Both the position numbers and the translations under genes were made by a program. From NCBI RefSeq assembly GCF_900119735.1, contig NZ_FPJW01000003.1:248001-312000 (forward strand): a stretch of 64,000 bases of DNA, read 5' to 3'. Within the stretch, counting starts at the first letter, position 1. Every line of letters begins with the position of its first letter. This document shows positions 7,466 to 53,561 of the stretch, one piece after another. The notes beneath the pieces are model-generated. The model ran no database searches and was not told the DNA's origin. It saw only the letters and a list, made by a program, of their open reading frames with translations. The DNA comes from Marinospirillum alkaliphilum DSM 21637. GTDB taxonomy: Bacteria > Pseudomonadota > Gammaproteobacteria > Pseudomonadales > Halomonadaceae.

Positions 7466-8023
7466 ATGCCTCGTTTCAATTGCTGTCTTCGATTCATTGG
7501 TTCCGGGTTATTGCTGATCGGTATGGCGCTGCCGGCTGTTGCCGCATCTGATGTAGCCACCCTGGCCGGTTTGCGCTTTAGTCAGGCCAGTGCGGATTTC
7601 AGTGGCATCAAGGATGATACTGGTACAGGTGTCGGGGTAGTGCTCGGTGTCAGTTATCCCACTTTTAGGGTGGTGGCTGACCTGAATCTTTACAGTTGGG
7701 ATGAAGTGAATACACGAACCATTCATGCCAGTTATGAGCGTCTATGGCAGGTTAGTGGTGATTGGCAGGCGTTTGCAGGTGTATTTGGTGGCGTAGTGGA
7801 TCTGGAGCTGGGCTCCGCACTGCGTGGCAAGGATGACTACCAGTCCGGCTTGTCCGGTGGAGTGCAGGCTGGGGTACTGTATCCTCTGGGTCGAGGCTGG
7901 CAACTGGAAACGGGTGTGAGGTACAACCACTTCAGTGTTGAAATATCCAGCCCGGCGCTGGACGAGGATGTTCGATTAAACAGTCAGGTTGAAGTTTTTG
8001 TGGTGCTTAACTTTTCATCCTAG
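7466..8023 (+). CDS. Outer-membrane beta-barrel protein, unknown role
   Basis: About 185 residues with an N-terminal signal peptide (hydrophobic core GSGLLLIGMALPAVAASD, cleavage probably after AVA). The rest shows alternating hydrophobic strands rich in glycine and aromatic residues (VGVVLGVSYPTFRVVADLNLYSW, GGVQAGVLYPLGRGWQLETGVRY) and ends in VVLNFSS, close to the terminal aromatic that marks BAM substrates. That supports a small outer-membrane barrel of about 8 strands, but I do not recognise the subfamily. GGAGAAG precedes ATG 7466. Its TAG stop lies in the CTAG that flanks the inverted-repeat element immediately downstream. Confidence 0.72.
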   Translation: MPRFNCCLRFIGSGLLLIGMALPAVAASDVATLAGLRFSQASADFSGIKDDTGTGVGVVLGVSYPTFRVVADLNLYSWDEVNTRTIHASYERLWQVSGDWQAFAGVFGGVVDLELGSALRGKDDYQSGLSGGVQAGVLYPLGRGWQLETGVRYNHFSVEISSPALDEDVRLNSQVEVFVVLNFSS

Positions 8024-8172: not shown

Positions 8173-9036
8173 CTAGAAGAGGAAGCCGACCTTAACACCC
8201 ACCCACGAAGGCTCCGCTGTATAACCGCTGCCTGGCTCAAAGCGTTGGTAGGCTGGGCTGTAAACCAGTTGAGTATAAGCACCTGTGACGGGTTCATCAT
8301 CACCAAATGCGCGATTGATCCGTGCGGAAAGGCTGCCTGCCGGGTTCAACAGGAACAAGGTGGTATTGCCCAGTGCCCGTGACCCCATCAGTTCGTTTTG
8401 GTTGGCCTTGATACGCTGTTCCCAGGTGAAAAAGGCTTCACCCACCACGGAGCCAATCAAGGGAGTGACAATCAGATCTTGTTTTGAGGGGATTTCTGCC
8501 AGAGCTTCAATACCCATTTCCCACAGGAAGGTGGACATCGCGAAGGAGTAAGCCCCTGATTCTAAAGGGGTAAGCCCCTGATTCCTGGCAACAACATAAT
8601 AAGCAGCACCAAAATACGGATGGCCAATGTAGTTCACCGGCCATTCATCCTGATCCCAGACCGGCCCTGCCTTGTTGTTTTCAATCCATTTGTCACCGAG
8701 ATTACTGAAAGTCATCTCGCTACGATCCCATTTGGAGATGTTTTCAGGCATCACAAACAGCACCGCCATGATGCCCAGCGACATGATCCCGATATTTCGG
8801 GTTTCCCGGATCATGCGGCGGGATTTTGACATTTCGGTTTGAGTGGATGGTTCAGATTCCTGTTGTAATGCTGCGAAAGCTGGCGTGTAAAGCTGAGCCA
8901 GGTGCTGACAGGCCAGGCTGTGACAGATCAGGTTGGCTGATGTTTCAGTATGCGGGTGAGCATTGCTGATGTTGGCCAGAGCCAGGGTAGGCAAGCAAAA
9001 AAGAGCCAGTAGAAGAAGGAGTCTTCCTGTCAGCAT
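8173..9036 (-). CDS. DUF3943-type exported protein
   Basis: About 287 residues. A signal peptide (MLTGRLLLLLALFCLPTLALA) is followed by a low-complexity linker, a hydrophobic segment (IGIMSLGIMAVLFVM), and a conserved core: WPVNYIGHPYFGAAYYVVAR, then S.AYSFAMSTFLWEMGIEA, then KQDLIVTPLIGSVVGEAF. This HPxxGaxYY / WE / D..TP..G...GE pattern is what I know as DUF3943, a probable envelope protein family of unknown function. The C-terminus VGVKVGFLF ends in phenylalanine like an outer-membrane barrel. A direct duplication of 14 bp (TAAGCCCCTGATTC, starting near 8549 and 8570) lies inside the gene. The stop codon lies in a CTAG flanking the MITE-like element. Confidence 0.66.
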   Translation of the reverse strand: MLTGRLLLLLALFCLPTLALANISNAHPHTETSANLICHSLACQHLAQLYTPAFAALQQESEPSTQTEMSKSRRMIRETRNIGIMSLGIMAVLFVMPENISKWDRSEMTFSNLGDKWIENNKAGPVWDQDEWPVNYIGHPYFGAAYYVVARNQGLTPLESGAYSFAMSTFLWEMGIEALAEIPSKQDLIVTPLIGSVVGEAFFTWEQRIKANQNELMGSRALGNTTLFLLNPAGSLSARINRAFGDDEPVTGAYTQLVYSPAYQRFEPGSGYTAEPSWVGVKVGFLF

Positions 9037-9370: not shown

Positions 9371-9647
9371 CTGAAAGTGCCTGACATAAACAAGGTAGTT
9401 GATCTTTATTGTTAAAGTTCAATGAGATATGGTTTTTATTTGATTGGAATCAAGGAAATCAGGCAGTAAATCTGTGCATTGCATTCAGCAATGTATGCAA
9501 ATGCGTACAAGGTTGTGAGTGGCATGCACGCATTGGACTCTCACATACCAGCAGCATGGGAAAAGAAAAAAACCTAAGAGTGCGAAATCCATCACATTTT
9601 TTACCGCTTATACCAGATGGTAGATGTTGCGTGCTGACCATCGGGGC

Positions 9648-9693
9648 AGGATACCCATCGTCTGATTGATAACAACCACGATGGGAACTGAAA
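9648..9693 (+). promoter_or_regulatory. 5' leader with AGGAT motif and SD-sequestering hairpin
   Basis: AGGAT (9648-9652) is followed by CCCATCGT (9654-9661), an exact inverted repeat of ACGATGGG (9678-9685). The right arm contains the GGGAA used as ribosome site for ATG 9694, so folding would hide it. The same layout precedes the paralogous barrel gene at 12288. Both the AGGAT and the GGGA in the ribosome site resemble CsrA contact sites. Control by CsrA is inference. Confidence 0.55.
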
Positions 9694-10353
9694 ATGAAAA
9701 AACAAGTGATGGCAGTGGCAGTGGCGGGCATGATGAGCTGGGGTGTGGCCGGTGCATCCAGCTTTGATGGCATCTATGCGGGTGTATCGCTGGGAAGCTT
9801 CAGTACCGAGATGAGCGCAGATGTTGTTTTTAATGGCAATAATGTAGTCAATGAGAAGGGTAAGTCTGGATCTGGTTCTGCCTTGGGCTTGCTGGCCGGT
9901 TATGGTCAGAGTTTTGATCGTTTTTATGTGGCCGGTGAGTTTAATTATCGCTCTGGCATGGGTGATTCAACGGCTGATGTCGATATGAGCGGCCCCGGCA
10001 AGTTTAAAAATGAGCTGGGACAAAGTTTTTCCATTGCTGTGCTGCCTGGTTATCTGGTGAGGGATGACCTGCTGGTTTATGGACGCTTGTCTTATGGCCT
10101 GACAGAATCAGACGTCAAAATTGTACAGGGTGGTAATACAGTTTTTGATTATGGGGCTGCATTAACAACCACAGGTTTTGGTGTCGGTGCCAGTTATGCT
10201 GTTTCTGAGCAGTTGCTGGTGCGAGGAGAGGTTCAGACTTTAAGCTCATCGAATGCCGAGTTTAAAACAGCTCAAGGAACTGATACTTTGGCTGTGAAAT
10301 CTGAAAAAATTTCCACCACGGGTTTTGAGTTGAGCCTGCTTTATCGTTTCTGA
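9694..10353 (+). CDS. Outer-membrane beta-barrel (opacity-like), module copy 1
   Basis: About 219 residues. Signal peptide MKKQVMAVAVAGMMSWGVAGA is followed by SSFDGIYAGVSLGSFS and repeated amphipathic strands with glycine/aromatic alternation (GLLAGYGQSFDRFYVAGEFNY, LLVYGRLSYGLTES, TGFGVGASYAVSEQLLVRGEVQ). It ends FELSLLYRF, a typical barrel C-terminus. The pattern fits small 8-stranded surface-antigen/OmpA-type barrels. It is paralogous to 12288-12986 (same signal peptide, same start of the mature part, same last nine residues). It is convergent with a PAS-LuxR-hydrolase regulator, an arrangement repeated for the second copy. Role unknown. Confidence 0.78.
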   Translation: MKKQVMAVAVAGMMSWGVAGASSFDGIYAGVSLGSFSTEMSADVVFNGNNVVNEKGKSGSGSALGLLAGYGQSFDRFYVAGEFNYRSGMGDSTADVDMSGPGKFKNELGQSFSIAVLPGYLVRDDLLVYGRLSYGLTESDVKIVQGGNTVFDYGAALTTTGFGVGASYAVSEQLLVRGEVQTLSSSNAEFKTAQGTDTLAVKSEKISTTGFELSLLYRF

Positions 10354-10394
10354 TTGGTAAAGTACCCTGCAGCCTGAAGTGTACAGCGAACTTG

Positions 10395-10424
10395 CCCATC
10401 CCTTTGCGGGGGTGGGTTTTTTAT
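10395..10424 (+). terminator. Terminator after barrel copy 1
   Basis: CCCATCC (10396-10402) pairs with GGGTGGG (10409-10417 region, one G-T pair) and is followed by TTTTTT. It stands between the two convergent genes, 40 bp after the barrel stop. Confidence 0.65.
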
Positions 10425-12118
10425 TATCCAGATGGTGTACTGATGCCTCTACCCTGATTTATTTCCGCCAGGGTTTGATAGATTTGCTCGCTATGGGACA
10501 GTGCCAACGTCAGACCGGCATTTTTAATGATGCGGATGTCGGCTGCGGGCTGGAGTTGCCGGAAGATGTCCAGGGTGCGTACTGGGGTGGTGGTATTGTG
10601 ATCACCATGCATCAGCACAACAGGGCAGGGTGCAAGCGAAAACAGGCTGCTCCAGTCTTTTAGCATCATCTTCAAGTCCACTTCAAATCCCGCCCCTAGC
10701 TGGTTCAGGTAGAAGGAGTAACAGCCGATGACGCCGCTACGATGCTGATTGCGCTGGATCACCTGTTGATCCTGGTGGATGCCTTCAAAAATCACTTCAG
10801 TCCAACGTTCAGGGCCCAGGTGTCGGGTGCGTACCATTAACAGACGAATCATCAGGCGGGCCAGCCAGGGAGCATGGCGAGCGGCCTGAATAAAAATCGC
10901 CTGATGTGCTGGCATGGCATTGATCTGTTCCAGTCGTTGGAAGGGGGGGGCCGCTGAGATGGCCAGGATGCCCTTGATACGTTCGGGGGAGCGGCAGGCC
11001 AGAGCAAGTGCAGGAATCAATCCGGCTTCATGGGCCAGGAGGGTGACCTGTTCCAGCTGTTGATCATCCATAAAGGCCAGTAGATCGTTGATCTGGCAGT
11101 CCAGCACATCTTCACTTCTATTGGGCAGTTGAGTACGACCATAACCCGGCCGCTCGATGGCAAAAACATCCAGATGATGCTTGGTTGCGGCACTGCGGTC
11201 GATTTCATATTCCCCTGCACCAAAAGAGGGGCCATGCAGCATCAGTATCTTCTGACCTTGTGGGTCACCAAAACGACGCCAGCCAATACGCCGTTGAGCG
11301 CGCATGATTTCTCCAACCTGCAGCTGACTGGTGATTGGCAGTCGCGGCATGGATGACGACTGGTTGTTCAGACGGTCGTTAATGGCCTGGGCTGCCGCTG
11401 TAGCGGCCAGGGTTGCTGCCTGCAACTGACTGGAAACGCCCATTTTCTGCAAGAGGCTTTTAATTTGCTGGCGCACAGTGGTGACGCTGCGCTGACGTTC
11501 ATCGGCCAGCTGCTCAGCATGCAGTCCGCGAGCAAGACCAGATAGAATTTCGCGTTCACTGGTAGAAAGACCAAACAGTGCCTTAATGGCTTGATCAATC
11601 GATTGTGGCCAGGCGTGCTGCAGCGCTTCCAGTACAAATGCCTGCCATTGAGCGTTGTAACGCCCCATCATGATTAATGGCAGGTTGTCAGCTCGGGATG
11701 CAAGGCGCTGGGTCTTGATCAATGTGGGGCCAGGCACGTTCATCAGTCGCTGATGAAATGCAACGAAGTCCTGACGGCGAATACCCAGTGAAGCCAGGCC
11801 ATCACCGGTAGAAATATGAAACAACTGGGCTGCGGCAGTGTTCAGTGCCAGGATCTGACCCGCTTCATTCAGTGCAATGGCTGGCGCGTTGTGATTGTTG
11901 ATCAGTGTGAAGAGCTGGTCCTGTTCAGCCACCAACTGCTCAATTTCGTGTAATGCTGTTGAAAGTGTCAGTGCTGTTTCTGCTGCCAGGGGTTGCTCAC
12001 CTGCAATCATTGGCATCAGGGCCAAAACAAGCTGATGGAAGGCTTCAGGCTGACTGGCAACAGACCGTACCAATTGATCCAACTGCGCGGATGATAGGTC
12101 GGTAGAGGTTAATGGCAC
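10424..12118 (-). CDS. PAS / LuxR-HTH / alpha-beta hydrolase fusion regulator, copy 1
   Basis: 564 residues. A helical N-terminus leads to a PAS-like region (about 70-130, with APAIALNEAGQILALNTAAAQLF), then a LuxR-type helix-turn-helix (about 183-240: LSTSEREILSGLARGL, TTVRQQIKSLLQKMGV), then an alpha/beta-hydrolase domain (about 275-560: LMLHGPSFGAGEYE, IERPGYGRT). The nucleophile elbow reads A-H-E364-A-G where an active hydrolase has G-x-S-x-G. The expected C-terminal GH is G535-L536. An Asp remains in HGD506. It is therefore probably a transcription factor whose hydrolase fold binds a ligand without turning it over. Having the DNA-binding domain in the middle is unusual for LuxR proteins. 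Its natural target may be the neighbouring barrel genes (inference from the repeated arrangement). Confidence 0.8.
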   Translation of the reverse strand: MPLTSTDLSSAQLDQLVRSVASQPEAFHQLVLALMPMIAGEQPLAAETALTLSTALHEIEQLVAEQDQLFTLINNHNAPAIALNEAGQILALNTAAAQLFHISTGDGLASLGIRRQDFVAFHQRLMNVPGPTLIKTQRLASRADNLPLIMMGRYNAQWQAFVLEALQHAWPQSIDQAIKALFGLSTSEREILSGLARGLHAEQLADERQRSVTTVRQQIKSLLQKMGVSSQLQAATLAATAAAQAINDRLNNQSSSMPRLPITSQLQVGEIMRAQRRIGWRRFGDPQGQKILMLHGPSFGAGEYEIDRSAATKHHLDVFAIERPGYGRTQLPNRSEDVLDCQINDLLAFMDDQQLEQVTLLAHEAGLIPALALACRSPERIKGILAISAAPPFQRLEQINAMPAHQAIFIQAARHAPWLARLMIRLLMVRTRHLGPERWTEVIFEGIHQDQQVIQRNQHRSGVIGCYSFYLNQLGAGFEVDLKMMLKDWSSLFSLAPCPVVLMHGDHNTTTPVRTLDIFRQLQPAADIRIIKNAGLTLALSHSEQIYQTLAEINQGRGISTPSG

Positions 12119-12236
12119 AGTCAGTACCTTATGAATATAGGTTCAGCGGATATTAATGCTCCAGTTTTATTGAGGCAATGCTGAAAATCCGGAATTTGTA
12201 CCACTTGGCGGATTTCTGAATGTTGATCGCCATCGT

Positions 12237-12287
12237 AGGATGCCCATCGTTTGATTGATCCTGAATAGTCATGAATGGGAGCAAATG
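12237..12287 (+). promoter_or_regulatory. 5' leader of barrel copy 2, matching that of copy 1
   Basis: AGGAT (12237-12241), CCCATCGT (12243-12250) and TTGATTGAT match the leader at 9648-9670 nearly base for base. CCCAT (12243-12247) can pair with ATGGG (12275-12279), whose last bases are part of the GGGAG ribosome site for ATG 12288. Patchy similarity to the first leader extends some 40 bp further upstream. The 169 bp between regulator 1 and this barrel gene must hold both divergent promoters, but I could not place boxes with confidence. Confidence 0.52.
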
Positions 12288-12986
12288 ATGAAAAAGCAAT
12301 TGATGGCAGTGGCAGTGACAGGGCTTATGAGCTGGGGTGTGGCGGGTGCATCATCTTTTGATGGAGCTTATGCCGGGGTGTCGTTGGCAAGCTTCAGCAT
12401 TGACAGTGAGGTTAAGCTGACAGACTTCAGCCAGCCTGAAGATAATGCCACAACCAAAAGCAAGGCAGGAAGTGCAACTGCCTTGGGTTTGCTGGTTGGT
12501 TACGGCAGGACGTTCGGTCAGTTTTATCTGGGTGGAGAGTTTCAATATCGTTCAAAGCTGGGTGTTGCTACCGGTAAGGAAGAGAATCATCCTGAGTGGT
12601 CGAATTTCGTCAAGGTAAAGACAGAGCTGGGGCAGAGTTATGCGCTTGCCATTATTCCGGGTTACCTGGTGATGGATAATCTTCTGGTTTATGGTCGTCT
12701 CACCTACGGTTTGACTGAGGCGGAGTCACAGTGGGAAGGCTCTGATGGGGGTGGTGACTATGCCCGGTACAGCTACGCGGGAGCTTTGCAGACGATGGGG
12801 GCTGGACTGGGTGTAGATTATGCTGTTCTGGATCAGTTGCGTATCCGTGCCGAGCTTCAGAGTGTCAGGGCGTCCGGTTTTGATGTGTTGGACGCCTGGG
12901 ACGCGGCTGGAAATATCGGTCGAAAAGTTGAAACTGACAAAATTGTCGCCACAGGTTTTGAATTAAGCCTGCTCTATCGCTTCTGA
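12288..12986 (+). CDS. Outer-membrane beta-barrel (opacity-like), module copy 2
   Basis: About 232 residues and paralogous to 9694-10353: signal peptide MKKQLMAVAVTGLMSWGVAGA, mature start SSFDGAYAGVSLASFSI, and the same ending FELSLLYRF. Internal loops differ in length and sequence, for example the charged insert with GKEENHPEWS, while the strands are kept (GLLVGYGRTFGQFYLGGEFQY, LLVYGRLTYGLTEAE). The start was set at 12288 by alignment with the paralogue and a GGGAG 6 nt upstream; ATG 12285 is also possible. Loop divergence with strand conservation suggests different surface ligands or escape from recognition. Confidence 0.78.
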   Translation: MKKQLMAVAVTGLMSWGVAGASSFDGAYAGVSLASFSIDSEVKLTDFSQPEDNATTKSKAGSATALGLLVGYGRTFGQFYLGGEFQYRSKLGVATGKEENHPEWSNFVKVKTELGQSYALAIIPGYLVMDNLLVYGRLTYGLTEAESQWEGSDGGGDYARYSYAGALQTMGAGLGVDYAVLDQLRIRAELQSVRASGFDVLDAWDAAGNIGRKVETDKIVATGFELSLLYRF

Positions 12987-13031
12987 AGCCCTGCGTTTGG
13001 CATTTACACAATAAAAGAGAAAAAGCAAAAA

Positions 13032-13063
13032 CAAAGCCAGACTTCACGTGAGTCTGGCTTTTT
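13032..13063. terminator. Bidirectional terminator between barrel 2 and regulator 2
   Basis: AGCCAGACT (13035-13043) pairs with AGTCTGGCT (13051-13059) around TCACGTG, followed by TTTTT on the plus strand. On the minus strand the stem is followed by TTTGTTTTTG. It serves both convergent genes; the stop of regulator 2 is at 13062-13064. Confidence 0.82.
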
Positions 13064-14747
13064 AATTTACCAGGGCATGGAACAGATGTTCGGCGTGATC
13101 GATGCACAGGCTCTGCCCTGCGTTCTGCAGTACCTCAAGGGTAATGACGGGATTGTTTGTGATGTAATAACCGGCAATGGCATCTGGTGGAGTGGTGGTA
13201 TTGAGCTGTCCGGTTAACAGTTGGCAAGGTATCTGGATCTTTGGAATTAAATCTGCCCAGTCACTCATTAGCAATTGCATGTCAAGCTCCAGCCCCAGAC
13301 CATGTTGGGTGTAGTTGAAGCTGTAAGCACCCAGTACACCCTGGCGGCTGGTATCCTGCTGCAGCACTTTCAGATCTTGTGAGTCAGGTGCAAATACGGC
13401 CTGAACCCAGTGTTCAGGACCGAGCTTGCGTTTCTGAACCATGCCAAGCCGGATCAACAATCGGGTGATCCAGATTGCGTTGCGGGCAGACCAGAGCATC
13501 ATGCGCTGCGATCTGGGAATGCCATCAAGTCGTGTATCTGCTGGAAAGGGGGTTGATGGTGAAACAGCCAGTAGTTTCAGAAAGCGCTCTGGTTGCTGTG
13601 TCGCCAGCGCCAGCGCTGGGATGATGCCTGTTTCATGACTGAGCAGGGTGACGGCAGGTAGTTCCAGATGATTGAGCAGTGCAAGACAGTCATCTACCTG
13701 GGTCTGCAGCAGATCGCTGTTTCGGGCTGGGGGATGGGTACGTCCATAACCGGGGCGTTCAATGACAAACACATTCAGCCTCGACGCCTGGGCCAGTGCC
13801 CGATCCTGTTCAAACTCTCCGGCACCAAAAAAAGGGCCATGCAGCAGCAGTACAGGTTTGCCTCTGGTGTGACCAAAACGACGCCAACCGATTCTGCGGT
13901 GCCCTCGTTTAAACTCTCCCAGTTGCAGGGAGTGTCTGGAAAACTGGTCAGGCTGGCCATGCGCTGGCAGCAATTGGCGGGTTCTGCTGGCCACTGAAGC
14001 AGCAAGTGCAACGACCTGATTCTGACGATGGGATCCGAGCTTGCTCATGACAGCTTTGATCTGTTGGCGTACAGTTGCTGAAGAGCGTTGGCGTTGTTCA
14101 CTGATCTGTTCGCTGGTCATGCCTTCAGCCAGGCAGGAAAGAATCATGCGTTCTGATGCAGACAGGCCAAAAACTGCCTGCAGTGCGCGGTCGATGGACT
14201 CTGGCCACTTGGACTGGAGTGCTTGTAGCAGGTAAATCTGGTTTTCCTGATGGTAGCTGCCTACCAGAACATTGGTGATGCTGGTTGAATTGATTGGTGT
14301 GGTGTACAGCAATGTTGGCCCATCTATCGTAAGCATGCGCTGCTGAAAGGCCTGAAAATCAGCTTCGGTTATGCCTAGCTGTTCGTGGTTGTCACCTGGT
14401 TTTGCAGAAAAGGCCTGCTCGGCAGCAGTATTGAGAGCCAGAATGATGCCTGCTTCACTCAGCGCCAACGTGGCCGCTGTTGCATGTTGAGTGAGCTGAT
14501 GCAGTCGATCATTCAGTCGTGCCTGATGTTCCACTTCACTGAGTAGTAGTGCCAGTGTTAGTGTGCTTTCAGTATCGAGTCCGTGCGGTGTCAGCGTGAC
14601 TGGTTCCAGATAATCGAGTAGCACCTCGTAGTTTTGGCGGTCATGTATAACGTCGAGAACCAATTGGCGTAATCGAGCACAATCCAGTAGTAGTGTATTG
14701 CTGGATGGCTGATCAGTCTGGGTTGGTGCCAGGGCGTCGGTTAGCAT
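13062..14747 (-). CDS. PAS / LuxR-HTH / alpha-beta hydrolase fusion regulator, copy 2
   Basis: 561 residues, colinear with the protein at 10424-12118: PAS-like region (about 85-140), LuxR helix-turn-helix (about 192-248: LSASERMILSCLAEGM, ATVRQQIKAVMSKLGS), and hydrolase-fold domain (about 285-560: LLLHGPFFGAGEFEQDR, IERPGYGRTHPP). The nucleophile position is again glutamate (S-H-E372-T-G). The acid position reads T-G-Q514 instead of HGD, and the catalytic-His site reads G544-Q545. All three catalytic positions are thus altered, more than in copy 1. It is convergent with barrel copy 2. The next gene upstream on the same strand is slmA, 73 bp away, and is probably unrelated. Confidence 0.8.
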   Translation of the reverse strand: MLTDALAPTQTDQPSSNTLLLDCARLRQLVLDVIHDRQNYEVLLDYLEPVTLTPHGLDTESTLTLALLLSEVEHQARLNDRLHQLTQHATAATLALSEAGIILALNTAAEQAFSAKPGDNHEQLGITEADFQAFQQRMLTIDGPTLLYTTPINSTSITNVLVGSYHQENQIYLLQALQSKWPESIDRALQAVFGLSASERMILSCLAEGMTSEQISEQRQRSSATVRQQIKAVMSKLGSHRQNQVVALAASVASRTRQLLPAHGQPDQFSRHSLQLGEFKRGHRRIGWRRFGHTRGKPVLLLHGPFFGAGEFEQDRALAQASRLNVFVIERPGYGRTHPPARNSDLLQTQVDDCLALLNHLELPAVTLLSHETGIIPALALATQQPERFLKLLAVSPSTPFPADTRLDGIPRSQRMMLWSARNAIWITRLLIRLGMVQKRKLGPEHWVQAVFAPDSQDLKVLQQDTSRQGVLGAYSFNYTQHGLGLELDMQLLMSDWADLIPKIQIPCQLLTGQLNTTTPPDAIAGYYITNNPVITLEVLQNAGQSLCIDHAEHLFHALVN

Positions 14748-24655: not shown

Positions 24656-25105
24656 ATGTGGGATTTACCAAACCCTTTTGTGTTCGAGCTGACGGTACAA
24701 CCTGATGCCATTGACCACTATGGCCATGTCAATAATGCCGAGTACCTGCGCTATATCGAGCAGGTGAGCTGGAAACATTCCAATCATCTGGGTTTGACCC
24801 TGGCAGACTACCAGCGGCTGGATCGGGCGATGGTGGTGGTGCGACATGAAATTGATTATCTGGCACCGGCTTTTGAAGGCGAAACGCTGCAGATTGCCAC
24901 CTGGATTGTTGGATTTGATCAGCGTTTCACCCTGACGCGCCGTTTTCAATTGTTGCGCCCGGCCGATGGCAAGACCCTGATGCGCGGGCGCACCCATTTT
25001 GCTTGTGTAGCGCTTTCAACCAGCAAACCCAGGCGCCTGCCTGAAGAATTTGTGACGGTTTATCTGCCTGCTTTAATTCGGGAGAAGGACGTGGTGCAGG
25101 GATGA
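24656..25105 (+). CDS. Acyl-CoA thioesterase, hotdog fold (YbgC/FadM type)
   Basis: 149 residues. The motif DHYGHVNNAEYLRYIEQ carries the hotdog-thioesterase Asp/His pattern, and the pattern AFEGETLQIATWIVG, RFTLTRRFQLL fits the 4HBT family. It would hydrolyse acyl-CoA esters; chain length cannot be predicted. The start ATG 24656 gives a standard-length protein 10 bp after rlmI. Its stop overlaps the next start (ATGA). Confidence 0.85.
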   Translation: MWDLPNPFVFELTVQPDAIDHYGHVNNAEYLRYIEQVSWKHSNHLGLTLADYQRLDRAMVVVRHEIDYLAPAFEGETLQIATWIVGFDQRFTLTRRFQLLRPADGKTLMRGRTHFACVALSTSKPRRLPEEFVTVYLPALIREKDVVQG

Positions 25106-25914
25106 AAGTTTACCTTTATCTCAATCCGCTGCAGTTGGATGTGCTGCGTCATGCGCGCTTACACTTGACTGCTTTGACTGACCTGCCAGACCCCTGGCAG
25201 AACAATGCCCGCATGATTCAGCGTCAATCGATCCGCATCAGTGAAGCAGAGTTCCAGAAAGAGCTGGAGCGTCAGTTCAAGGCACTACCTACCCAGTTGA
25301 AGGGGTTGATGACCTGGGAAGACTTCAAGATTGAAGCCCAGAAAAAGCGCCCGAAAATTGAAGAGCAGATGAAAAAGGGACGGCAGGGCAAACCCACGGT
25401 GCTGCCCAATCCGGAAGCCTATCAAGAGCTGGGTTTGTGCCGCTTTTTCACTCGCGCAGATAATCCGCTGCTGTGGGATAGGTATGCTGACCAGCATCGT
25501 GGTGTGGTGTTGGAGCTGGACACCAGCTATCCGGGTTTTAACAGCAAGAAGCAGGTGCTGCGTCCGGTGGTGTATGGTCAGCCACGCCCGCAGGCGGACC
25601 ATCCGATGAAACCCTTTCCGGCACTGTTTCATCGGGCTGCGGAATATGCCAGCGAAGAAGAAATTCGCCTGATTCGCCCTCTGGCTGAAGCCAAAAACAA
25701 CAAGCCACTGGCCAATGGCAAGCTGGTGTATTTTTACCCCTTCCCACCGCGTGCGGTCATGTCAGTGACTCTGGGTGTCAATGCAACAGAAGATACCCGT
25801 GAACAGGTCAATCGTATTCTCAACTACGACATGAAATACAAACCTGGCCGCCCGCTGCGAGAAATACTGCTCGACCCGGATCAGTTCAAGTTGCATATCC
25901 GTGGTACGCTGTAA
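25102..25914 (+). CDS. DUF2971 domain protein
   Basis: 270 residues. The segments LHLTALTDLPDPWQNN, GLCRFFTRADNPLLWDRYADQHRGVVLELDT and YASEEEIRLIR match DUF2971, a family of unknown function often found near defence or mobile genes. The usual N-D-P-F-E-like early motif is altered here to LPDPW. ATG 25102 overlaps the thioesterase stop by 4 bp, so the two are probably translated together. Confidence 0.75.
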   Translation: MKVYLYLNPLQLDVLRHARLHLTALTDLPDPWQNNARMIQRQSIRISEAEFQKELERQFKALPTQLKGLMTWEDFKIEAQKKRPKIEEQMKKGRQGKPTVLPNPEAYQELGLCRFFTRADNPLLWDRYADQHRGVVLELDTSYPGFNSKKQVLRPVVYGQPRPQADHPMKPFPALFHRAAEYASEEEIRLIRPLAEAKNNKPLANGKLVYFYPFPPRAVMSVTLGVNATEDTREQVNRILNYDMKYKPGRPLREILLDPDQFKLHIRGTL

Positions 25915-41636: not shown

Positions 41637-41696
41637 CATCAATTGTAGATGTCTGCCTGCCTGAGATACATTGGATTCACAGGACATGAATTTCCA

Positions 41697-42476
41697 ATGG
41701 AGTCGTCAATGGTTGAAAGCAGTCGTGTGTTGTATGAGGATGATGAACACCAGTACGTCTGGTTTGGCTGGGAAGACCCTGACTGTGAAGATAGCCTGGT
41801 GCAGTCCAATCAGGTGCTGGTGATCAATCAGGATCAGGGTTATCTGTTTGATCCTGGTGGTGCCTTCATTTTTTCCGAGGTGGCAGCAGAGGTCAATAAA
41901 TACCTGGCGCTGGATCAGATACGCTATTTGCTCGCTACACACCAGGATCCCGATGTACTTTCCTCCGTTACCCTTTGGCTGAAAGCCACTCATGCACGTT
42001 TGCTGGTTTCACGCCTGTGGATCCGGTTTGTCTCTCACTTTGGTTTCAGCGATAACAGCCGTCTGATTGCCATTGAAGACAAGGGCAAAATGATCAAGTT
42101 GCCTGCGGGTGGTGAGATCATCTTGTTACCCGCTCACTTTTTACACAGTGAGGGTAATTTCTGTTTTTACGATAGCCGTTCAAAAATCCTGTTTACTGGT
42201 GATATTGGTGCTGCTGTATTCCCCAAGGGGGAGCGTTACCTGATGGTGGAAGACTGGGACAAACATCTGGCTTACACCGAAGGTTTCCACAAACGTTACA
42301 TGGGTAACAATCAGGCCTTGCGCAAATGGGTGGCGATGGTGCGTCAATACCCCCTGGAAATGATTGTTCCTCAGCATGGTGCCATTATTGGCAAGGAACA
42401 CATTCCTGCTTTTCTGGACTGGCTGGAAAATCTGCAGTGTGGCACAGACCTGCTGGATGAGTTTTACGGTTTTTAG
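41697..42476 (+). CDS. Di-iron metallo-beta-lactamase-fold (ODP-type) protein, copy 1
   Basis: About 259 residues. The fold motif is ATHQDPDVLSSVTLWLK (metal-binding HxDxD), with later ligands in LPAHFLHSEGNF, LFTGDIGAAVF and MIVPQHGAII. The pattern THQDPDV and SRLWIRFVSHFG matches the oxygen-binding di-iron (ODP) family related to flavodiiron proteins but without a flavodoxin domain. It is probably an O2 or redox sensor rather than a hydrolase. ATG 41697 was preferred by alignment with the next gene; ATG 41649 and 41709 are possible. The flanking paralogue and HD-GYP gene suggest a sensory set. Confidence 0.78.
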   Translation: MESSMVESSRVLYEDDEHQYVWFGWEDPDCEDSLVQSNQVLVINQDQGYLFDPGGAFIFSEVAAEVNKYLALDQIRYLLATHQDPDVLSSVTLWLKATHARLLVSRLWIRFVSHFGFSDNSRLIAIEDKGKMIKLPAGGEIILLPAHFLHSEGNFCFYDSRSKILFTGDIGAAVFPKGERYLMVEDWDKHLAYTEGFHKRYMGNNQALRKWVAMVRQYPLEMIVPQHGAIIGKEHIPAFLDWLENLQCGTDLLDEFYGF

Positions 42477-42556
42477 GGTGCATAACCTGTGGGGCAGATG
42501 CCCTGAAGCGGATACAACAAGAAGACATGGATTGATTGACAGAGGAGCCTGCCGGG

Positions 42557-43348
42557 ATGACAACGCATCTGGAAGACAACCGCCTGCTGTATGAAGATGA
42601 TGAGCATCAGTTTGTCTGGTTTGGTTGGGAGGAAGAAGAGGGCTCAGACTCTTTTGTGCAAACCAATCAGTGCCTGATCATTAATCAGGACCAGGGTTAT
42701 CTGTTTGATCCAGGCGGTACTTATGTTTTTCATCAGGTTCTGGAGCAGGTGACGCGTTATCTGCATCCGCGCCAGATCAATACACTGATTGCCACCCACC
42801 AGGACCCGGATGTCTGTTCTTCCGCACCCTACTGGATGAAAGCAACCGATGCCAAGTTGCTGATTTCCCGTTTGTGGCTTCATTTTGTATCGCATTTTGG
42901 CCTGGATGAACCAGAGCGTGTGGTGCCCTTGCCGGATCGGGGTGCCAGATTGCGTTTGCCCAGTGGCGATCACCTGCTGTTATTACCAGCTCATTTTTTA
43001 CACAGTGAAGGGAACTTCAGCATTTTTGATGAGCGCTCCGGCATCCTGTTCAGCGGTGACATTGGGGCATCCATCTTCCCGAAGGGTAAGCGTTCTTTAT
43101 TGGTTGAGGATTTTGAAGCACACCGTGCATTCATGGAGCCTTTTCACAGGCGGTATATGCACTCCAATGCGGTGTGTCGCCACTGGGTTGCGCAGATCAG
43201 GGCTCTGCCGCAACCGGTGAAGATGATTGTGCCGCAACATGGATCGATGTTTCAGGGGGAGCAGGTGGAAAACTTCCTGTCATGGTTTGAAACACTCCAG
43301 TGTGGAGGTGATTACCTGCAGGCCATCTACACTGATCAACCCGTTTAA
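42557..43348 (+). CDS. Di-iron metallo-beta-lactamase-fold (ODP-type) protein, copy 2
   Basis: 263 residues, paralogous to the preceding gene over its full length: LLYEDDEHQFVWFGWEE, LFDPGGTYVFHQV, ATHQDPDVCSSAPYWMK, LPAHFLHSEGNFSIFDE, LFSGDIGASIFPKGKRSLLVEDF, IVPQHGSMF. All metal ligands are kept in both copies. GAGGAGCC precedes ATG 42557. A tandem pair with kept active sites suggests either a heterodimer or different affinities for the same ligand. Confidence 0.78.
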   Translation: MTTHLEDNRLLYEDDEHQFVWFGWEEEEGSDSFVQTNQCLIINQDQGYLFDPGGTYVFHQVLEQVTRYLHPRQINTLIATHQDPDVCSSAPYWMKATDAKLLISRLWLHFVSHFGLDEPERVVPLPDRGARLRLPSGDHLLLLPAHFLHSEGNFSIFDERSGILFSGDIGASIFPKGKRSLLVEDFEAHRAFMEPFHRRYMHSNAVCRHWVAQIRALPQPVKMIVPQHGSMFQGEQVENFLSWFETLQCGGDYLQAIYTDQPV

Positions 43349-43385: not shown

Positions 43386-44594
43386 ATGTTTTTGCGCGAT
43401 TTTGAACTATCCAGAATCATGCCGGAACACCTGAAGGTGGACCACCCGGTACCCTGGCCCATTTACGACGAATTCGGCAAGTTGTTAATGGCCAAGGGGG
43501 CCGTTTTGCGTTCCGAACGTCAAAAGGAAATTCTGGCAAGGGTGGGGCTGTTTGCCCGTGAAGCCAATCCAGAGCCTGAGGCAGAGGTTCCACAGCCCGT
43601 GCGTTTTCGGCGCAAGGTGAACCCTTTTAATGAGTTTGATGAGCTGTGCCTGAAGCTGGAAGCAGTTTTTACGCTGATGGAGGCGGAAAAACGCCCTAAC
43701 CCCGGCATCATCAAAAAACGTGTGTATGAAATCTGTACCACGCTGCAGGGACTGGTGGAATACGATGCTGATGCGTTGCTGGGTGCTGTGCATCTGGCGG
43801 ATCAGTTTCCCTACCATGTATTGCACCCCATGCAGATTGCAGTGCTGTCAGAGTTGATCATGGATCGCTTGCAGGCAGAACAGGCGGTGCGCCTGTCCGT
43901 TCTGGCTGCCGCTTTAACCTGTAACCTGGCCATGAACCCGTATCAACAGCGCCTGCATCAACAGCGCACGCCGCTGAATGATCAGCAACGGCGAGTGATT
44001 AACCGTCATCCCTTGCAAACACGTCAAAGTCTGGAAGAAGCAGGTGTTGATGACTTGTTGTGGTTGGAGTTGGTGGCTCAGCACCATGAAAAACTGGATG
44101 GCAGTGGTTATCCGCTGGGTTTGAGTGGTGATCAGATTCGCCGTGAAGCGCGCATTCTGGCTCTGGCCGATGTTTACAGTGCGATGGTGACACCAAGGCC
44201 CTATCGCAATCCGATCAAACACAAGGATTCACTCAGGGATATTTTCACCCAGCGTGGCAGTAAGTTTGATTCCAAACTGACGCTGCTGTTTCTGAATGAA
44301 TTGGGGGTTTACCCACCGGGTGTGTATGTACGGTTGAATAATGGTGAGCTGGCCGTGGTGATCGGGCGTACACCAGACCCACGCTCACCCCTGGTGGCGA
44401 GCATCCGCAAGCCCAGTGGTGATTTGTTTTTGTCACCCAGACGCCGGAATACCGGTTCAGAACAGTTTGGTATTCGCAGCGCCTGTAACGTGAATGAAAG
44501 GATCAAGATCAACCCGGCCACCCTGTGGGGCATTAATGCCATTCGGGTGAATGTGATGCCGGCTGACCTGTCCGGCATCTCGGATCTGATCTGA
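43386..44594 (+). CDS. HD-GYP-related protein lacking the HD dyad
   Basis: 402 residues. The N-terminal region (PIYDEFGKLLMAKGAVLRSERQ) resembles the leader domain of many c-di-GMP proteins. The GYP half is intact: AQHHEKLDGSGYPLGLSGDQI (residues 232-250) and ARILALADVYSAMVTPRPYRN. Where an HD-GYP enzyme has LHDIGK, this protein has ALTCNLAM, so H-D is replaced by T178-C179. Metal binding and phosphodiesterase activity should be impaired. It could be a c-di-GMP-binding or regulatory pseudo-enzyme. It follows the two ODP genes by 37 bp on the same strand and may be their output partner. Confidence 0.8.
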   Translation: MFLRDFELSRIMPEHLKVDHPVPWPIYDEFGKLLMAKGAVLRSERQKEILARVGLFAREANPEPEAEVPQPVRFRRKVNPFNEFDELCLKLEAVFTLMEAEKRPNPGIIKKRVYEICTTLQGLVEYDADALLGAVHLADQFPYHVLHPMQIAVLSELIMDRLQAEQAVRLSVLAAALTCNLAMNPYQQRLHQQRTPLNDQQRRVINRHPLQTRQSLEEAGVDDLLWLELVAQHHEKLDGSGYPLGLSGDQIRREARILALADVYSAMVTPRPYRNPIKHKDSLRDIFTQRGSKFDSKLTLLFLNELGVYPPGVYVRLNNGELAVVIGRTPDPRSPLVASIRKPSGDLFLSPRRRNTGSEQFGIRSACNVNERIKINPATLWGINAIRVNVMPADLSGISDLI

Positions 44595-51011: not shown

Positions 51012-51542
51012 TCACTCATTTTCTGCAAGTTTTTCTGCCATGCCCTGTACCGGGTAGAGGGTATAAATGCGAAAAAACTCCTCGCGGGAAAAGGTTTTGA
51101 CCAGGTTTTTGCTGTAGGCAATCTTGCGGTTACGCTGCAGGTCAAAACCCTTGTAACCCAGCAGTTGCAGGCAGTGGGCGCAGACTTCGCGCTGCTGTTC
51201 TTGTTGTGGACCCACTGGCAAGCCACCCGTGCGGCGAGTACTGATCCAGACTGTCTGACTGGCAGACCAGGCATCTGTCACCGGGCACTGGGCCAGATGA
51301 TAATCACCGGCATTTTCCAGGTAGACAACCAGTCGCGTGTTTTTAAGTCCCCAGGTGTGATCAGCAAAACGCTTCAGGCGCGCCAGTGGCAGTTGGCGAC
51401 CTTGCTGATCCAGCTCGGAGCGCTCTTTGCCGGTCAGGTGTTTTTCGGCGTTAAAAAGCTCAAAATGCCCGGTTTTGCGTGCACCCATTGCCAGCCTGAG
51501 TTCACGAAAGGGTTCAAATTCAGTGAAGTCGGGCAGTTGCAT
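51012..51542 (-). CDS. Third gene of the ZorAB-like operon, Cys-containing protein
   Basis: 176 residues. Not assigned to a family. The N-terminus (MQLPDFTEFEPFRELRLAMG) has no signal or membrane helix. The C-terminal third has VCAHCLQLLGYKGFDLQRNRK followed by FSREEFFRIYTLYP; a CxxC pair with LgYkGf and F..eeFF..Y suggests a small zinc-binding domain, but the other ligands are not obvious and I see no HNH or nuclease motif. Its start is 1 nt after the stop of the ZorB-like gene. It is not recognisable as ZorC, ZorD or ZorE. Confidence 0.6.
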   Translation of the reverse strand: MQLPDFTEFEPFRELRLAMGARKTGHFELFNAEKHLTGKERSELDQQGRQLPLARLKRFADHTWGLKNTRLVVYLENAGDYHLAQCPVTDAWSASQTVWISTRRTGGLPVGPQQEQQREVCAHCLQLLGYKGFDLQRNRKIAYSKNLVKTFSREEFFRIYTLYPVQGMAEKLAENE

Positions 51543-51543
51543 G

Positions 51544-52278
51544 CTAAGGGTCCTGCTGCAACGGGCGGCGCTGGTTTTCCAGAATGGCACGAATGCGGGA
51601 ATCAGCATCGGTGCGTACCCGGAACTCCACCCGGCGCGAAAGTTCGGCATTTTCGCTGCCATCCGGGTTGAGCACCGGATGGGATGAGGACAGGCCATTG
51701 GCGGTGAGATTACGTTTTAACCAGTCCTGCTCATGTGCCACGCTGGGCAGGGTGATCACATACTCCAGACCGGAGCGGGTGCGCTCCTGCGACAGGCGCA
51801 TGTTGTTGATATAGGCTTCGTTGGCATCTCTGGCATTGGTCCAGTCACTGGAGGTGTGGCCTTCAATGCGAACTTCTTCGATGTCATCCCGGTAGCGTTC
51901 AGAGGTGATCACCCGCACATAACGCGGGAAAAAGTCCGCCAGGATGGCTTCAAAGGCGGGGCGCAATCGTGCTGAACCCAGTTCAAACAGTACGCCACTG
52001 TCCTGAAAGGTGATGACCAGATCAGGCGTCAGCTGGGCACCCCAGCGCGGCAGGTCATCTTCAAACTCATCCAGCAGGTCCTGATACAGGGCTTCACGCA
52101 GGTCCAGGTAGATTTCGGCCACCTCGCGCATGCGCTCACTTTCCTTCTGTACGATGACCATGAAAATCACCGCCACCAGCAGGAATACCATCATCAGTCC
52201 GGCCATCAGGTCGCTGACGGAAATCCAGTGGGCACCTTCTTCACCGGCCAGGGTTTCTTCTTCCTGATTCTGCATCAT
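51544..52278 (-). CDS. ZorB/MotB-like protein with OmpA domain
   Basis: 244 residues. After a short acidic N-terminus there is one membrane helix, HWISVSDLMAGLMMVFLLVAVIFMVIV, in which D23 would be the ion-carrying aspartate. A helical linker leads to an OmpA-like peptidoglycan-binding domain (VLFELGSARLRPAFEAIL, VRIEGHTSSDW, LSQERTRSGLEYV, ELSRRVEFRVRT). The SDLMAGLMMVFLL motif is characteristic of ZorB in Zorya phage-defence systems. It forms an ion-driven motor unit with the ZorA-like protein. SD GGAGG lies inside the end of the upstream gene. Confidence 0.8.
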   Translation of the reverse strand: MMQNQEEETLAGEEGAHWISVSDLMAGLMMVFLLVAVIFMVIVQKESERMREVAEIYLDLREALYQDLLDEFEDDLPRWGAQLTPDLVITFQDSGVLFELGSARLRPAFEAILADFFPRYVRVITSERYRDDIEEVRIEGHTSSDWTNARDANEAYINNMRLSQERTRSGLEYVITLPSVAHEQDWLKRNLTANGLSSSHPVLNPDGSENAELSRRVEFRVRTDADSRIRAILENQRRPLQQDP

Positions 52279-52283
52279 GCGAC

Positions 52284-53561
52284 TCAGGTCCCTCCGGTTT
52301 TGCTGCTCTTGTCAGTTTTGTCCAGCTGTTCGGCCAGACGCACCAGCTCCCGCAGTTTGTCGGTCAGCGGAGTGTAATCACTGACAAATTTTTCGGACAG
52401 GGCGGCCAGCTGGCTGCCAAAGGTCTGCAGGGCGTGAGTCAGCTCATGTTCCATTGCGGCATCCAGACGGATCAACTGCTGTTCGGTACGATCCAGATTG
52501 CGTTCGGTCTGCTTTTGCTGGCGCAGCAGTTGTTCATCCAGGCGTTTACCCAGCACGTCATTGAGGTTTTCAACACTGTCGGCCACCCGTTTTGCTGAGC
52601 TGTCCATCAGGCGCTGCATCTGCACATGCTGGCGTTCCAGTTGCCCGGCCAGGCCATCGGTGAGGGTGTGAATGCGCTCTTCCAGTTTGGGCAGGCCACC
52701 CCCGGCCTTGTTGACCAGATTGGCCAGCGAGTCCAGGTATTTGCCGAGGGATTCTGACTGCTGCTGCAGGCCGCCCATCACACTGCCGAGGGTTTCCGCC
52801 ACCTCGTTAAAGGCCTGGGTGTGTTCCACCATGGTTTTGTAGGCTTCGGTTGCCTTGTCCAGCACCTGACCATTGGCACGTTGTTCGTTCAGCAGGGCTT
52901 CCAGCTCTTCCTTGTAGTTCTCCTGCCACTGCAGCATCTGGCCCACGGCATCATTCAACTGGCGGAAGTTGTCGCCATACTGGGTGCCGATCTGCTGGTT
53001 AAAGTCAGCCAGCAGTGTTTCCAGGGCACTGATCAGTGCTTTGGAGTTGGCATCAGCCATCTTCTGCTGGTAATCACCGATGCCTTCCCCCAGCTTTTTC
53101 AGGCTGGCTTCCAGGCGTTGTTCATTGGTTTTCAGGTATTCATCTATGCGGGTGAGGCCGGAGTTTTTCAGCAGCAGGCGGATGTCGCCCAGTAGTGTGG
53201 CCAGATCATCCATGGTGGCACCGGTGACCTGTACCGATCCATCCATGCCACGGACATGGTTCAGCACATGGCGCATCTTGATGGTCATGGCACCGAGCAG
53301 TCCGGCGATAGAAGACCAGAAAGCCGTTTTTAAACCTTCAATCAGTTGCGGAACACTGGCTTCCACATCAGCAGCATCAAACTCCATCAGACCCAGCGCC
53401 ACACCAAAAAAGGTGCCGAAGATGCCCACGCTGGTGAGGATAGAGGGTGCGGCATTCACGGTGCGCAGGGAGTAAACCGGACCATGGAAATACACCGTCA
53501 TTGCGGCGATCAGGATGATGAAGAACAGTGTCAGGGGTGAAAAGGCACTCAGCAGATCCAT
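52284..53561 (-). CDS. ZorA/MotA-TolQ-ExbB-like motor protein with long coiled-coil tail
   Basis: 425 residues. Three membrane helices (LTLFFIILIAAMTVYF; PSILTSVGIFGTFFGVALGLMEF; LIEGLKTAFWSSIAGLLGAM) precede about 320 residues of almost continuous coiled coil (SLKKLGEGIGDYQQK, LNEQRANGQVLDKATEA and so on). This matches the MotA/TolQ/ExbB superfamily with a ZorA-type cytoplasmic tail and differs from flagellar MotA (four helices, no tail). In Zorya the tail is thought to transmit ion-driven rotation to an effector. Alternatives are an uncharacterised housekeeping motor. It heads a three-gene operon with 5-nt and 1-nt gaps. Confidence 0.8.
   Translation of the reverse strand: MDLLSAFSPLTLFFIILIAAMTVYFHGPVYSLRTVNAAPSILTSVGIFGTFFGVALGLMEFDAADVEASVPQLIEGLKTAFWSSIAGLLGAMTIKMRHVLNHVRGMDGSVQVTGATMDDLATLLGDIRLLLKNSGLTRIDEYLKTNEQRLEASLKKLGEGIGDYQQKMADANSKALISALETLLADFNQQIGTQYGDNFRQLNDAVGQMLQWQENYKEELEALLNEQRANGQVLDKATEAYKTMVEHTQAFNEVAETLGSVMGGLQQQSESLGKYLDSLANLVNKAGGGLPKLEERIHTLTDGLAGQLERQHVQMQRLMDSSAKRVADSVENLNDVLGKRLDEQLLRQQKQTERNLDRTEQQLIRLDAAMEHELTHALQTFGSQLAALSEKFVSDYTPLTDKLRELVRLAEQLDKTDKSSKTGGT

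Follow-up and report, generated by a model that had tools for sequence, protein, structure and literature searches.

The 64,000 nt stretch of the Marinospirillum alkaliphilum DSM 21637 genome (3.14 Mb) analysed here, referred to as the window, includes two genes for predicted outer-membrane barrel proteins and two genes for LuxR-type regulators. They lie in the order barrel, regulator, barrel, regulator, and each barrel gene is convergent with the regulator gene downstream of it. This layout, which had been proposed in an original prediction made for this DNA, was confirmed by the coordinates and strands of the open reading frames (ORFs). The genes, together with the domains, codons and candidate promoter sites considered below, are as follows; HTH denotes helix-turn-helix.

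9611–9625 (+): operator 1, palindrome TACCAGATGGTA followed by GAT, 5′ of barrel 1; the whole conserved element spans about 9607–9626
9647–9652 (+): candidate −10 of barrel 1, CAGGAT, 21 nt after the 15-mer; only NANNNT fits
9694–10353 (+): barrel 1, predicted OmpA-like outer-membrane 8-strand β-barrel, 219 aa
10424–12118 (−): regulator 1, GTG start, 564 aa; helical N-terminus, PAS-like part, LuxR HTH, α/β-hydrolase fold
10457–11320 (−): α/β-hydrolase domain and lid of regulator 1, residues 267–554; Pfam Abhydrolase, Foldseek 9wlv TMt 0.88
11027–11029 (−): codon for Glu364 of regulator 1, nucleophile position of the hydrolase fold; predicted strand 358–363, then helix 364–376
11405–11569 (−): LuxR-type HTH of regulator 1, residues 184–238, recognition helix with TVRQQ.K; Pfam GerE 2.2e-7
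11609–11920 (−): PAS-like domain of regulator 1, residues 67–170; Pfam PAS below the cut-off, predicted strand/helix order
12199–12213 (+): operator 2, degenerate copy TACCACTTGGCGGAT, 5′ of barrel 2, in the region from which regulator 1 and barrel 2 diverge
12236–12241 (+): candidate −10 of barrel 2, TAGGAT, 22 nt after the 15-mer
12288–12986 (+): barrel 2, predicted OmpA-like outer-membrane β-barrel, 232 aa; ORF open from 12255
13062–14747 (−): regulator 2, 561 aa, architecture as regulator 1; immediately downstream of slmA
13632–13634 (−): codon for Glu372 of regulator 2, nucleophile position by alignment to regulator 1

The barrel and regulator proteins

The two regulators share 42 % identity (E 2e-143). 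Both belong to the GerE-type LuxR group, with GerE and Abhydrolase_1/_6 above the Pfam cut-off, and neither an autoinducer-binding domain nor a receiver domain of the NarL type was among the Pfam matches to E 0.1. In the AlphaFold2 model of regulator 1 (pLDDT 84.6), the Foldseek matches, which cover the hydrolase part of the protein, are α/β-hydrolases, the best being 9wlv, and membership of this fold is therefore indicated by both Pfam and Foldseek. The original prediction of a PAS-LuxR-hydrolase architecture stands for the HTH and the hydrolase fold. Its PAS part is weaker, as the Pfam PAS matches (18.3 and 13.2 bits) fall below the cut-off of 22.6; residues 67–165 of regulator 1 are predicted to form two strands, helices and three strands, which is a PAS-like order. 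Within the HTH, T214–Q218 and K220 are invariant in 24 aligned sequences, and a distant relative from a Tistrella plasmid differs.

Active site positions were read against solved hydrolases in the alignment. In isobutylene epoxide hydrolase, the residue aligned with Glu364 of regulator 1 is the Asp of the GHD motif, which we take to be the nucleophile of that enzyme. This position is occupied by an acidic residue in all 25 family rows (Glu in 18, Asp in 7). Among the 24 readable rows, the acid position is Asn in 22 and Ser in two, and where the general-base His is expected, 22 rows have Leu, Gln or Met and two, both alphaproteobacterial, have His. Instead of a nucleophile-acid-His triad, the two window rows and 20 other readable relatives from outside the alphaproteobacteria have E/D, N and L/Q/M. 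The Tistrella plasmid relative has kept Asp and His, and a Thalassolituus hydrolase that was aligned with these rows but is unrelated to them has the normal Ser, Asp and His. The structure match and this alignment bear out the earlier description of the domain as a pseudo-hydrolase, namely a hydrolase fold with a changed active site.

Mean pairwise identity, calculated without two truncated rows and without the seven rows also omitted from the tree (six class-level matches and one unrelated Thalassolituus hydrolase), is 55 % for the HTH, 47 % for the first half of the hydrolase core, 43 % for the lid, 38 % for the PAS-like part, 32 % for the second core half and 16 % for the linker. HG.xFG, E322, GYG, Q473, G477, W489 and G535 show no variation at the positions counted. 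Because the first core half and the lid stay conserved, the hydrolase domain would appear to be a retained ligand pocket and not a decaying domain.

The barrel proteins are 50 % identical (E 1e-68), and matches to Pfam OMP_b-brl/OmpA_membrane are above the cut-off in both (OMP_b-brl, 4.8e-11 for barrel 1 and 3.1e-9 for barrel 2). A structure was predicted for barrel 1 only; the AlphaFold2 model (pLDDT 79.8) is an 8-strand barrel and the nearest solved fold is OmpA (Foldseek E 5.5e-10). With a signal peptide judged by eye from the sequence, both proteins are predicted to belong to an OmpA-like family of 8-strand outer-membrane barrels.

The candidate palindromic operator

A recurrent DNA palindrome, TTTATACCANNTGGTAGATG, often followed by a −10-like TANNNT exactly 21 nt later, was traced via a translated stretch common to the upstream reading frames of several target genes. 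When each palindrome is counted once, TACCANNTGGTAGAT occurs at 16 exact sites in 12 of the 21 hydrolase-type loci (332 kb), at 21 sites in 15 of these loci when one mismatch is allowed and at 28 sites in 17 when two are allowed. The reversed pattern, used as a control on both strands of the same 21 loci, yielded 0, 0 and 3 sites, respectively. Counting both strands of the palindrome would give 16, 24 and 48 sites. The aligned sites read TTTA-TACCA-NN-TGGTA-GATG, and operator 1 is an exact match to the family consensus.

In the alignment of 29 sites, 18 have TANNNT exactly 21 nt beyond the 15-mer. The 29 were chosen by eye; matches that fell in clear ORFs, the lower-scoring strand of a given palindrome and some weaker sites with two mismatches (such as L010 8361, L014 7118, L028 607 and those in L033) were dropped. 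Without hand-picking, TANNNT is present at offset 21 in 15 of the 27 unique sites with up to one mismatch in 34 loci, and no other offset between 3 and 38 has it in more than one of them; the background frequency is 0.006. The sequence that separates the motif from the −10 is poorly conserved, and there is no conserved TTGACA. For 22 aligned sites with printed positions, 16 lie 42–112 nt upstream of the start of the longest ORF of the facing gene, and in the remaining six that start is closer, farther or was not found. If TANNNT is taken as −12 to −7, the centre of the palindrome falls at a predicted −42.5, the position of a class II activator. The lux box is reported to be centred at −42.5 (PMC3376562).

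Four shorter LuxR relatives have no hydrolase domain, and the exact motif lies alongside three of them (L030 and L031 from Ferrimonas and L032 from Oceanospirillaceae), which ties the motif to the HTH. The regulators of L030–L032 are about 370 aa and, as they share the operator, the family of regulators extends beyond the hydrolase fusions.

In the M. alkaliphilum genome, there is a single exact ATACCANNTGGTAGAT, in front of barrel 1. The 18-mer, a stricter form than the 15-mer, was detected in only one of 369 genomes drawn from the class, the window's own. Five of 124 Marinobacter genomes contain it, and all five are among the six Marinobacter genomes with the regulator; the sixth, Marinobacter zhejiangensis, has a form with two mismatches. 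The hypergeometric probability of this co-occurrence is about 3e-8 if the genomes are treated as independent, though the five are related. The exact 15-mer is present in 16 of 21 regulator genomes (18 of hydrolase type and three without the hydrolase domain), at 24 sites versus 0 for the control, and by coordinates 18 of the 24 are inside regulator loci. In the sets searched, the operator thus appears nearly confined to genomes that carry the regulator.

Distribution and origin of the gene pairs

The regulator is rare and was found in three of 146 relatives, including M. alkaliphilum itself (E 1e-20), in six of 124 Marinobacter genomes and in two of 17 genomes of the genus of the Alcanivorax locus L025. 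At E 1e-30, seven of 369 genomes of the class, again including M. alkaliphilum, have a regulator-like match. A scan of contigs with an alignment gave 23 loci, 19 of which (L011–L029) are of the hydrolase type, and no relative was found when the same contig set was scanned with a single sequence. Two of these loci, L015 and L016, are contigs of metagenome-assembled genomes (MAGs) labelled Spirochaetes with regulators near those of Marinobacter and Marinospirillum, and reflect either transfer or mis-binning.

The original prediction took the repeated linkage of barrel and regulator to imply a functional unit. This pairing does recur. In Alcanivorax, a close barrel is present in exactly the two of 17 genomes with the regulator (E ~1e-93), with the next matches at 1.2e-21 or weaker and 10 of the 17 genomes matched in all, in a search for which the query alignment included those two barrels. 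Both (L025 and L026) are adjacent to and convergent with the regulator and have an exact operator, and in Marinobacter L020 a barrel of the same family, also with an exact operator, is about 5 kb from the regulator. A barrel as the usual partner is, however, not supported. The barrel was found in one of eight genomes of the window's genus, and Marinospirillum celere has the regulator and no barrel match. At 10 of the 20 other hydrolase-type loci (L010–L014, L018, L020, L022, L023 and L027), including that of M. celere, the operator heads a lipoprotein-like gene, so called from a signal judged by eye at the N-terminus. In a further seven (L015–L017, L019, L021, L024 and L029) no operator was clearly paired with a gene within the fetched locus. 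As M. celere has the regulator without the barrel and other loci have other cargo, the barrel was rejected as an obligate partner.

The genes that neighbour the regulator are varied. Proteins of clusters C1/C6, in which Pfam Lcl_C was detected (tested on two M. celere members), are neighbours in M. celere, G095, Saccharospirillum and Thalassolituus. Elsewhere, the neighbours are an FG-GAP_2 protein (L020), a surface Ig-like protein (Oceanobacter) and a 956-aa lipoprotein-like protein with no Pfam family (Parathalassolituus). Several Marinobacter have a 491-aa lipoprotein-like protein, also with no Pfam family, and a methyltransferase/ATP-grasp pair, with FadL-family porins downstream.

Carriage as phage or plasmid cargo was considered and rejected. 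The 50,697 phage records yielded no match at E 1e-10, and at E 1e-20 the 72,556 plasmid records contained one distant relative (28.7 %), that of Tistrella, on a plasmid predicted to be conjugative. A role as a defence system was also rejected, as regulator 1 and barrel 1, the two proteins scanned, have no PADLOC match to 0.001.

The two gene pairs had been described as a duplicated module, and this holds only in part. The pairs are paralogous. However, a tree built from the 25 hydrolase-type rows places regulator 1 beside its M. celere counterpart as a sister (98/97) and groups regulator 2 with the regulators of Oceanobacter, Parathalassolituus and a Saccharospirillaceae MAG (97/96). A common clade forced on the two window regulators, the only pair tested and the one named in the original prediction, has a p-AU of 9.4e-6, and a recent tandem duplication of a two-gene module was therefore rejected for the regulators. 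The barrels are 53 % identical to one another in alignment A4, while barrel 1 is 32–33 % identical to three aligned relatives, and the barrel promoters align with a score of 28 (mean 5.3 and maximum 17 in 1000 shuffles). Because the barrels are nearer to each other than to their relatives and their promoters align well, barrel and promoter look duplicated, and the second regulator looks to be of other origin; as the regulators are not sister genes, this was not a simple duplication of a two-gene unit. Regulator 2 sits behind slmA, in the slot held by the single regulator in M. celere, which suggests that a cassette of barrel 2 and regulator 2 was inserted between slmA and regulator 1. In three genomes (L010, L017 and L018), members of the same two regulator sub-clades form tandem pairs, a second and different arrangement of two regulators.

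Further features of the window were recorded. Adjoining the module are a gene for a DUF3943 protein (8173–9036, −; 4.3e-38) and a small barrel-like ORF (7466–8023), with no operator with up to two mismatches inside or between them. A candidate PDC-S31 protein (PADLOC, 1.8e-16), with no Pfam family to 0.001, is encoded at 25102–25914 (+). Two tandem metallo-β-lactamase-fold proteins of the ODP family (41649–43348, +) are followed by an ORF resembling an HD-domain protein, as judged by eye (43386–44594). Zorya type II defence genes were identified by PADLOC at 51012–53561 (−), with ZorA at 1.6e-107, ZorB at 9.9e-93 and a ZorE-like HNH ORF at 1.1e-13.

Proposed regulation and comparison with known systems

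The sequences themselves show the architecture, the altered triad and the operator. They also show that about half of the sites stand at a fixed distance from a −10-like element and that, in the sets searched, the operator is nearly limited to genomes with the regulator. From them we infer binding, activation, a sensing role and the pairing of regulator and barrel. Each regulator is probably a locally dedicated one-component activator with the altered hydrolase domain as its sensor. The LuxR-type HTH would bind the palindrome TACCANNTGGTA as a dimer, at a site centred at the predicted −42.5 that touches a degenerate ATG where a −35 element would otherwise lie, and would recruit RNA polymerase to the promoter of the neighbouring gene, often one for an envelope protein. 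The targets would be the two OmpA-like barrels in the window and lipoproteins elsewhere. Either regulator may act on either barrel: the intergenic region shared by regulator 1 and barrel 2 contains operator 2, while in Alcanivorax the barrel is convergent with the sole regulator detected there. The hydrolase domain, which has lost the normal catalytic residues and largely kept its pocket and lid, most likely binds a small hydrophobic molecule without turnover. The ligand state of this pocket (or of the PAS-like domain) would control activation, and the PAS-like domain may add a second input. The FadL-type porins and the occurrence in genera with known use of hydrocarbons give a weak hint that the ligand is hydrophobic.

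A number of observations weigh against this proposal. Operator 2 aligns with operator 1 and has two mismatches to the consensus, and barrel 1 has CAGGAT instead of TANNNT. When two mismatches were allowed, the M. alkaliphilum genome contained 10 sites compared with four for the control, so weak sites mean little. The other six class genomes with a regulator-like match are without the 18-mer, and the motif by this measure belongs to a closer clade. Six of the 24 genome-wide sites are outside regulator loci: three are within ORFs (L058, L070 and L076), the L061 site is on another contig and heads a lipoprotein-like gene, the L053 site is upstream of a gene that, as judged by eye, resembles a short-chain dehydrogenase, and the L064 site overlaps a short, doubtful ORF. 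No site with up to two mismatches was found in four of the 21 hydrolase-type loci (L015, L016, L021 and L029, two of which are contigs of 3.3 and 5.3 kb), L017, one of the 15 loci counted with up to one mismatch, has its sole match within the coding sequence of the regulator, and no ORF is present within 400 nt of the Solimonas site. The fourth relative without the hydrolase domain, Croceibacterium L033, has only sites with two mismatches. In several Marinobacter, one site heads the methyltransferase/ATP-grasp pair, hence not every putative target is an envelope protein. As to the sensor, the second core half is less conserved than the PAS-like part, and His is kept in the two alphaproteobacterial rows and the Tistrella relative, where catalysis is possible.

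Other explanations must be considered. The regulator might be a repressor that occupies the −35 region at the promoters of barrel and lipoprotein genes until ligand releases it, and the overlap or abutment of the site with this region, the palindromic core and the location of several sites in regions divergent with the regulator gene would all suit this role. We consider it unlikely, as the fixed 21-nt distance to the −10 and the lack of a conserved TTGACA point to an activator-dependent promoter, whereas the site of a repressor would be expected to tolerate shifts. It is very unlikely that barrel and regulator are neighbours merely through travel in a mobile block, with the motif a relic of the common descent of their flanks. 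The patchy spread of the regulator among the relatives, Marinobacter and Alcanivorax, and the relative on the plasmid predicted to be conjugative, would suit a mobile block. However, the same operator and spacing precede unrelated families (barrels, lipoproteins and a methyltransferase) in several bacterial families, and the sequence between motif and −10 is little conserved.

The hydrolase domain could also be a working enzyme with an unusual Glu or Asp nucleophile that couples hydrolysis of a signal to regulation. Among the solved sequences nearest to it are epoxide hydrolases and haloalkane dehalogenases, whose nucleophile is an acidic residue, and the residue at this position in the regulators is acidic as well; members from alphaproteobacteria have also kept the His. 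Yet the base His is absent and the acid position is Asn in all 22 readable rows other than the two from alphaproteobacteria, and a working enzyme is accordingly quite improbable. A variant of sensing that we regard as a long shot is a trap, in which the acidic nucleophile would attack an electrophile (epoxide, haloalkane or strained ester) and, with no His, the intermediate would stay covalent and lock the protein on. HaloTag, in which the His is changed, is an analogue, and the regulator would likewise stay labelled. A regulator of this kind would act once only, as a chemical alarm that turns on envelope proteins.

The activator with a ligand-binding hydrolase domain, which we prefer, was compared with what has been described. 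Word matching in the open-licence PubMed Central (PMC) literature, mostly titles and the starts of abstracts, found no description of the fusion, the operator or the swapping of cargo. The longer motif forms TACCAGATGGTA and TACCANNTGGTA occur in none of the 20 papers listed among the 51 that match the motif as text, and no such protein is described in the available portions of PMC6304351 and PMC8547461. One-component LuxR activators and hydrolase-derived receptors are each known already. Here, the regulator architecture (PAS-like part, central LuxR HTH and altered hydrolase) comes with a predicted DNA target and promoter geometry, and the system is therefore directly testable. It also provides a rule for finding further members, namely one regulator clade, one operator and interchangeable cargo that is often an envelope protein.

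The barrels resemble the transmembrane domain of OmpA in their predicted 8-strand fold but are without the peptidoglycan-binding OmpA domain among the Pfam matches, and the OmpA equivalog model scores far below its cut-off (25 against 277 bits). With the quorum-sensing activators LuxR and TraR, the regulators have in common the LuxR-type HTH, and the predicted centre of the inverted repeat, −42.5, would match that of the lux box. They differ in that no autoinducer-binding domain is among their Pfam matches, the HTH is central and followed by a hydrolase-fold domain, the palindrome is another one, and in the M. alkaliphilum genome the one exact site is within the regulator locus. Epoxide hydrolases and haloalkane dehalogenases are among the closest solved sequences (the best single match is annotated as an esterase) and share the acidic elbow residue, but the gammaproteobacterial regulator rows lack the base His and the acid Asp and are fused to a LuxR HTH.

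The plant hormone receptors GID1 and DAD2/D14/KAI2 are lidded hydrolase folds reused as receptors, and GID1 is described in PMC3531792 as a hydrolase-derived receptor that has lost the active-site His. GID1 keeps Ser and Asp, whereas in the window family the nucleophile position is Glu or Asp and the acid position Asn. The plant receptors act through protein partners and are not fused to a DNA-binding domain, whereas the window regulators are fused to an HTH and would be a bacterial example of a hydrolase fold that has become a receptor and is coupled directly to DNA.

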